Shown: positions 61,067 to 62,649 of the stretch, one piece after another
How the letters are laid out: each line of letters starts with the position of its first letter
Position numbering within the stretch: position 1 is the stretch's first letter
NCBI RefSeq assembly: GCF_000423245.1
Contig: NZ_KE383993.1
Location: 702,159-766,158, forward strand
Origin: Ligilactobacillus ceti DSM 22408
GTDB taxonomy: Bacteria > Bacillota > Bacilli > Lactobacillales > Lactobacillaceae
DNA length: 64,000 bases
Direction: 5' to 3'
Program-made: the position numbers and the translations under genes
The notes under the pieces: model-generated
Database searches by the model: none
The model's input: the letters and a program-made list of their open reading frames with translations, nothing else
What the model was told of the DNA's origin: nothing

Positions 61067-61702
61067 TTAATCTTTATCATTATGCGGTGTCCGCTGTTTA
61101 AAGATTTGTTGGGCATTTTTAATTTCATCACGAATATTCGACATCTCAGTATCTAAAGAAAACGCCGCCTCAGCTGCTTTTTCTAGCCGTTCTGCAATTT
61201 CTAGCGGGAACGCACCTTGATATTTATAGTTTAAAGAATGCTCAATTGTGGCCCAAAAGTTCATAGCTAATGTCCGAATTTGAATCTCAACTTTAATTAG
61301 CTTTTCTCCTGACAACAATTGAATGGGATACTCAACAACAACATGATACGAACGATAACCACTTGATTTACGATTCGTAATATAATCACGTTCAGAAATA
61401 ACTTTCATATCTCCCCGCGCTTTAATCAAATCTAATACTTGATAGATATCTTCTACAAATTGACAAACAATGCGAATTCCAGCGATATCTTCCATATTAT
61501 CTTCAATTTCAGCTAATGTAATTTGTCGTCTTTGTGCTTTTTCTAAAATACTAGGTACAGCCTTGACTCTTCCGGTCACAAATTCGATCGGAGAATGTTG
61601 ATCAGCTGTCTGATATTGATGTCGACAAGCTCGAAATTTAAACTTGAGCTCATTCACAACTTGACTATATGGATATAAAAATTCATCCCAAATGATTTCC
61701 AT
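61067..61702 (-). CDS. relQ: Small alarmone synthetase (RelQ type)
   Basis: Single-domain (p)ppGpp synthetase without hydrolase domain. The 211 residues show VTGRVKAVPSILEKA with the ATP-binding residues about 44-58, the catalytic DIAGIRIVCQFVEDIYQV about 72-89, NRKSSGYRSYHVVVEYP about 109-125 and the VEIQIRTLAMNFWATIEHSLNYK about 138-160. Context with nadK is characteristic of RelQ (SAS1) rather than RelP. GGAGAG precedes the ATG. A possible extended -10 TGTTACACT lies about 35 bases upstream. Confidence 0.94.
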   Translation of the reverse strand: MEIIWDEFLYPYSQVVNELKFKFRACRHQYQTADQHSPIEFVTGRVKAVPSILEKAQRRQITLAEIEDNMEDIAGIRIVCQFVEDIYQVLDLIKARGDMKVISERDYITNRKSSGYRSYHVVVEYPIQLLSGEKLIKVEIQIRTLAMNFWATIEHSLNYKYQGAFPLEIAERLEKAAEAAFSLDTEMSNIRDEIKNAQQIFKQRTPHNDKD

Positions 61703-61871
61703 TGCACTCTCTCCACTCTTATTCCATTATCCTTATATAGTGTAACATAAGAGACTTTATTTTAGTTAATTTCAACTTGAGTACTTTTAATCTTTTTCGC
61801 TAATTTTTTTAATCATTTTTCATAATTGTCTTATTTTTATAAGCTTATTTCCACATCTTACCTTCCTTTTG

Positions 61872-61880
61872 TGTTATACT
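61872..61880 (+). promoter_or_regulatory. Possible spxH extended -10
   Basis: TGTTATACT at 61872-61880 (hexamer 61875-61880), leaving a ~100-nt AT-rich leader; the -35 is not clear. The rest of 61703-61871 shows only AT-rich sequence. Confidence 0.4.
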
Positions 61881-61966
61881 AGCTCTGGTATTCAAGAACT
61901 TTAGAAATAATAATCAAATATGTAACTATAATTTAATTTATAAAAACTATAAGTTTCAGCAAAAAT

Positions 61967-61987
61967 ATGGGGGGGGACAGCAACTGA
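61967..61987 (+). other. Six-codon upstream frame with a G8 run at the spxH ribosome binding site
   Basis: ATG at 61967-61969 opens a frame reading M-G-G-D-S-N then TGA at 61985-61987, whose final A is the first base of the spxH ATG. Eight Gs at 61969-61976 form both the upstream codons and the only Shine-Dalgarno-like sequence. One extra G would put the upstream ATG in frame with spxH. Confidence 0.55.
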
Positions 61988-62649
61988 TGATTGAAATATA
62001 TTTATTCGTAAATCCAATCGGAAATATCTGTTATCGAACAGAGCAGAATATTTTAAATTTGATTGAAGAATCAAAACGCGATATAACCTTTCGATTTATT
62101 CCTTTGTTATCACTAAATACAATCGATAACATTTTGGATCGCGAAAGCTTATCCAAAAACGACTTAAATTTACGTAATACTTTATCTAGAGAAGTTTATC
62201 GTGCGTCTTTAGATTACAAAGCTGCTTTATTTCAGGGTCAAAAACGCGGACGCTTATTCTTATTAAACGTCCAAGATCAAATCAAAAATAACGCTCAATA
62301 TCATTATACTGAAGAAATTGCACAACAAGCTGCTATTGCCGCTCGTCTTGATTTAGAACTATTTAATGAAGATTGTAATTCTGAACTAGCAATCAAAGCA
62401 TTCAAACAAGATCAAAAACTTGCCGCAGAAATGAAAGTAACTCAACATCCTTCCGTTGTAATTTTTGATCCTAGCAATGAAAAAACAGCTTTTTCAATTT
62501 CAGGTCCAGATTCAATGACCTTTTTGGATAATGTGTTAACAACTCAATTTTGTAATCATGGAGAAACTAATGTGGTTGCAGAAAAAAAGGCCCTCGAACA
62601 AATCCAATATTCAAAGAAAAATTCCAGTCATCCATTGCGTTTAAGATAA
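61987..62649 (+). CDS. spxH: SpxH/YjbH-type ClpXP adaptor (DsbA-fold protein)
   Basis: In Bacillus YjbH delivers the redox regulator Spx to ClpXP. The 220-residue protein starts EIYLFVNPIGNICYRTEQNI: where the Bacillus protein has FVDPLCPEC this one keeps only the second Cys (about residue 16). A long helical insert and QHPSVVIFDPSN, the cis-proline loop about residues 157-168, complete the DsbA/thioredoxin-like fold. The C-terminus is longer and basic. It is divergent from relQ, the usual arrangement. Clear family but modest conservation. Confidence 0.82.
   Translation: MIEIYLFVNPIGNICYRTEQNILNLIEESKRDITFRFIPLLSLNTIDNILDRESLSKNDLNLRNTLSREVYRASLDYKAALFQGQKRGRLFLLNVQDQIKNNAQYHYTEEIAQQAAIAARLDLELFNEDCNSELAIKAFKQDQKLAAEMKVTQHPSVVIFDPSNEKTAFSISGPDSMTFLDNVLTTQFCNHGETNVVAEKKALEQIQYSKKNSSHPLRLR

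Follow-up and report, generated by a model that had tools for sequence, protein, structure and literature searches.

The run of eight G residues in front of the spxH gene of Ligilactobacillus ceti DSM 22408 is very probably the ribosome-binding site of that gene, unusually long but otherwise ordinary; translation would begin at position 61987 for any tract that keeps about five Gs or more. All positions refer to the window, i.e. the whole stretch of 64,000 nucleotides that was analysed. The features concerned are:

61969-61976, plus strand: run of eight Gs, the spxH Shine-Dalgarno (SD) sequence (it ends 10 bases 5' of the ATG; pairing; ortholog position)
61967-61987, plus strand: six-codon ATG-to-TGA frame, probably not translated (no SD pairing; such frames are common)
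61987-62649, plus strand: spxH (yjbH-like), 220 amino acids (PF13743; PDB 6ghb_B)
61948-61953, plus strand: TATAAG, a candidate -10 element for spxH transcription, read from the letters

The run can be read directly from the letters. It lies inside the six-codon frame ATG GGG GGG GAC AGC AAC TGA, whose TGA (61985-61987) has one base in common with the spxH ATG (61987-61989), the two forming TGATG (61985-61989). The sequence-only reading had drawn attention to the run, to the overlapping mini-frame and to the one-base overlap, and all three are exact on re-reading. By the letters, one additional G would bring the ATG at 61967 in frame with spxH and place MGGGQQL ahead of MIEIYL.

The product of 61987-62649 is a putative adaptor of the SpxH/YjbH type, as had been claimed, and as such would deliver Spx to ClpXP. 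It carries the YjbH-type thioredoxin-like domain (PF13743, E=1e-51, 175.8 bits against a cut-off of 27) and matches the sequence of the YjbH-type protein GK0824 (PDB 6ghb_B / 6gho, E=9e-13), these entries being Spx-YjbH structures; a search of the 220-residue product against NCBIfam assigned no family. ArsC-family matches in the same genome are found at C1:768744-769070 and C1:684962-685285, and the former is identified as Spx by NF002459 (193.9 bits against a cut-off of 123), which means that the presumed substrate of the adaptor is encoded in the same genome. The Spx gene lies near spxH, past the window end, as do ORFs that presumably resemble coiA and mecA. Upstream of spxH are a GTP diphosphokinase of the RelQ/YjbM type, NAD kinase and an ORF resembling a pseudouridine synthase, on the other strand; the downstream neighbour is pepF. 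The CxxC motif of YjbH-type proteins (CPEC in GK0824) reads GNIC in the window (61987-62034), and in spxH orthologs the first cysteine is replaced as well, by glycine in most of those examined and by serine in some.

The function of the run as an SD sequence, which had also been claimed, is supported both by its predicted pairing and by its position in orthologs. The pairing was calculated with the anti-SD tail ACCUCCUUUCU, taken from genomes of the same genus, two of which contain the 16S tail GGATCACCTCCTTTCT; the 3' end of the 16S gene was searched for in the 17-contig draft assembly of L. ceti and was not found, and this use of a tail from relatives counts against the reading as an ordinary site. 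The eight Gs are predicted to pair with ACCUCCUUUCU at -10.3 kcal/mol, at a usual distance of 10 bases before the ATG. Comparison was made with 254 ORFs, sampled from the 64-kb window and 13 stretches and including the spxH site itself. The median of the sampled starts is -9.1 kcal/mol, a value inflated because the starts were chosen by a score that contains SD pairing; the spxH site pairs more strongly than about 77% of them, and about 23% are stronger. In two RNA folds the eight Gs have unpaired probabilities of 0.26 to 0.95, in line with a site that is not strongly buried.

The pairing would depend little on the length of the run. Five successive Gs, wherever they stand in the run, would form four G-C pairs plus a single G-U pair with CCUCC, the core of the 16S tail, and extra Gs would contribute G-U pairs with the UUU that follows CCUCC. 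The predicted energies are -5.5 (G4), -8.4 (G5), -9.3 (G6), -9.8 (G7), -10.3 (G8), -13.0 (G9) and -13.6 (G10) kcal/mol, and every length from G5 to G11 reaches -8.4 kcal/mol or better. Since all these lengths pair well, a good SD site should be left after the gain or loss of one G, and weakening is to be expected only at four Gs or fewer. Initiation at 61987 would thus be kept by any tract that retains about five Gs, and changes of one or two Gs should have little effect. The predicted step from G8 to G9 could nevertheless raise translation a little, which is a point against the ordinary reading.

The SD comparison among orthologs covered 58 loci, 24 of the same genus and 34 named loci (mostly Enterococcus) that were retrieved with peptide words including MIEIYLFV and are therefore biased to that N-terminus; 22 ortholog matches without a locus were left out, and the counted loci possibly include duplicate species. 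All 24 same-genus orthologs carry an SD core or near-core 7-10 bases before the start. The best core among them is GGAGG in 20, GGAGT in two, GGGGG in one and TGAGG in one, and among the 34 named loci it is GGAGG in 18, GGGGG in 13, GGAGA in two and GGAGT in one, so that an exact GGGGG occupies the SD place in 14 of the 58. One same-genus locus (L015) has GGGGGAC at the same spacing of 10 bases as the G8 site. The start codon and the N-terminus MIEIYLFVNP are conserved among the named orthologs. In Enterococcus (E. durans, E. villorum, E. lactis, E. ratti, E. thailandicus and others) spxH likewise has an SD sequence of the GGGGG type, with a core weaker than the consensus, and its length is constant in many species; there, however, five Gs stand 7-9 bases from the start and no ATG is merged into the run, whereas L. 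ceti has eight Gs, a distance of 10 and a merged ATG. A run of more than five Gs at the spxH SD was found at none of 63 other ortholog loci (the 58 and five more, L028-L031 and L033, inspected apart), which shows that the long tract is not kept in the relatives; nor does any of the other 58 have ATGGGGG at the orthologous place, and none of the 44 other tracts of at least eight Gs listed for the genus, compared by position, lies at spxH. The G8 run would then have arisen by lengthening, specific to this lineage, of a site of the GGGGG or GGAGG type at a conserved distance. A homopolymer that catches the eye can thus be a ribosome-binding site of the ordinary kind, relatives having GGAGG or GGGGG there.

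On the plus strand of the window G3 occurs 92 times and G4 nine times, G5 to G7 are absent, and then there is one G8. The genome as a whole (1,385,752 bases, counted on both strands) contains 32 G6, three G7, one G8 and one G10 runs. Extension of the roughly tenfold drop from G6 to G7 gives, by our arithmetic, about 0.3 expected runs of at least eight, and two are seen; by itself the single G8 is mildly unusual, and the G10 more so. At the 254 sampled ribosome-binding sites the longest G run is four in 12, five in five and eight in one, a slower fall with length than genome-wide. Two of the three G7 runs of the genome (L127 and L128) are SD sites 8-9 bases before the ATGs of ORFs of 497 and 242 amino acids, the latter encoding a DUF1003 protein. 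Because such G5 and G7 SD sites occur elsewhere, a long G run before the start appears to be a recurring style in this genome. The length of eight itself has no explanation other than chance lengthening, and this too is a point against the ordinary reading.

The mini-frame at spxH is ordinary. An ATG is present within 30 bases 5' of the start in 92 of the 254 sampled ORFs; 40 are preceded by a short frame in another reading phase, in 30 a one-base insertion would bring an upstream ATG in frame, and in 13 the stop of an upstream frame abuts or overlaps the start. "AT" directly precedes runs of at least three Gs in the window in 10 of 102 cases on the plus strand and in 51 of 311 on the minus strand, and the ATG at 61967 and its frame would be by-products of such an "AT". 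Upstream of this ATG the predicted pairing is +0.1 kcal/mol, weaker than for all 254 sampled starts, and lacking SD pairing neither the mini-frame nor a fused, longer SpxH is likely to be made. If TATAAG (61948-61953) were the -10 element, the mRNA would start only a few bases before 61967, leaving no space for a second binding site. AT-rich words resembling TAAAGTA are found at a similar place in the same-genus orthologs. When 61700-62030 was scanned for promoters, the single match was weak and started inside the run (shuffle mean 1.9); TATAAG was not reported. A role of the run as a promoter spacer was rejected, the hexamers flanking it scoring only 6 of 12.

These results bear on the proposal that the run is a slippage switch, in which replication slippage would alter the frame or strength of initiation and thereby SpxH levels, Spx stability and thiol-stress tolerance from cell to cell. 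A run of eight Gs is able to slip, and elsewhere in the genome a G10 run occupies a promoter-like spacer that belongs to a surface-protein gene. Two routes had been suggested. Fusion of the upstream ATG to spxH by one added G does yield the open frame for MGGGQQL-SpxH, but this ATG has no ribosome-binding site, and on this ground, together with the commonness of such frames, a frame-fusion switch was rejected. Weakening of the binding site by loss of Gs fails for one-base changes, which still leave good predicted pairing; although G9 is predicted to pair more strongly than G8, an off state would require the loss of about four Gs. Neither the predicted pairing of G7 to G9 nor the unpaired upstream ATG indicates that a one-base change turns expression on or off. 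Simple-repeat phase variation involving several start codons is known from the lic genes of Haemophilus influenzae, where tetranucleotide repeats within the genes have large frame effects. As in lic, the repeat at spxH separates two ATGs that differ in frame; unlike in lic, the first of them lacks a ribosome-binding site and the second is in frame in every case. Another parallel is espR of Mycobacterium tuberculosis, also with a G homopolymer in a 5' UTR, where tract length can alter translation of the regulator and an insertion raises it (PMC11898584). The espR tract changes a hairpin far from the SD and varies among isolates (PMC11898584), whereas the spxH tract is the SD itself and is not known to vary. 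Moreover, the long run is confined to L. ceti among the ortholog loci, and spxH encodes a housekeeping adaptor, not a surface structure. Among the papers searched, none joined spxH and phase variation. To compare strains at the tract, viral contigs and plasmids were searched, with 0 matches in the former and none in the latter, both as expected for a chromosomal gene. We consider a switch very unlikely.

The overlap also invites the explanation that the six-codon frame is translated and that ribosomes stop at its TGA and restart at the spxH ATG, the leader thus setting SpxH output, since stop-restart coupling usually involves an overlap such as TGATG. Yet the mini-frame has no SD of its own, its body is the SD of spxH, ATGGGGG is peculiar to L. 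ceti among the orthologs examined and comparable overlaps occur in 13 of the 254 sampled genes, which makes coupling most improbable. It is equally improbable that the tract was miscounted and that the true run is shorter, e.g. five to seven Gs. Sequencing is known to be error-prone at homopolymers and the assembly is a draft, but such runs do occur, as seen from the two G7 SD sites in this genome and the G8 and G9 ones in relatives.

A milder variant is that the over-long poly-G SD sites of the genus (the spxH G8, the two G7 sites and the G8/G9 sites of a DUF554-like gene in relatives) act as mutable tuning knobs, small slippage steps causing SpxH and a few other proteins to vary mildly among sister cells. 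This seems very unlikely. If poly-G SD sites did slip often enough, the result would be a graded phase variation without frameshifts, affecting a stress regulator instead of a surface structure.

A better candidate for a switch than the G8 run is the G10 run of the same genome (L130, C14:9200-9209), which stands between TTGATT and TAAACT with a spacer of 19. It follows pyrG and the pyrG terminator and precedes a long ORF that resembles a surface protein. This ORF exceeds 1,200 amino acids, is open at the contig end and has a signal-like start followed by DUF7507/DUF11 repeats. The layout is that of promoter-spacer phase variation, as judged from sequence. In the other genomes of the genus, 25 of the 44 distinct listed tracts of at least eight Gs were inspected. 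Four of them (L072, L073, L075 and L081), near locus position 1501, are G8, G11, G9 and G10 runs between promoter-like hexamers with scores of 9, 9, 11 and 9 of 12, these being raw scores without a shuffle control; ORFs with signal-like N-termini lie downstream of the first three. This suggests that promoter-spacer G tracts may recur in the genus; the tracts L078 and L091 also score at least 9 of 12 and yet do not resemble such promoters. Finally, in two related species orthologous SD sites near locus position 1501 consist of eight Gs in one (L077) and nine in the other (L085), with nearly identical flanks, in front of a DUF554-like gene.
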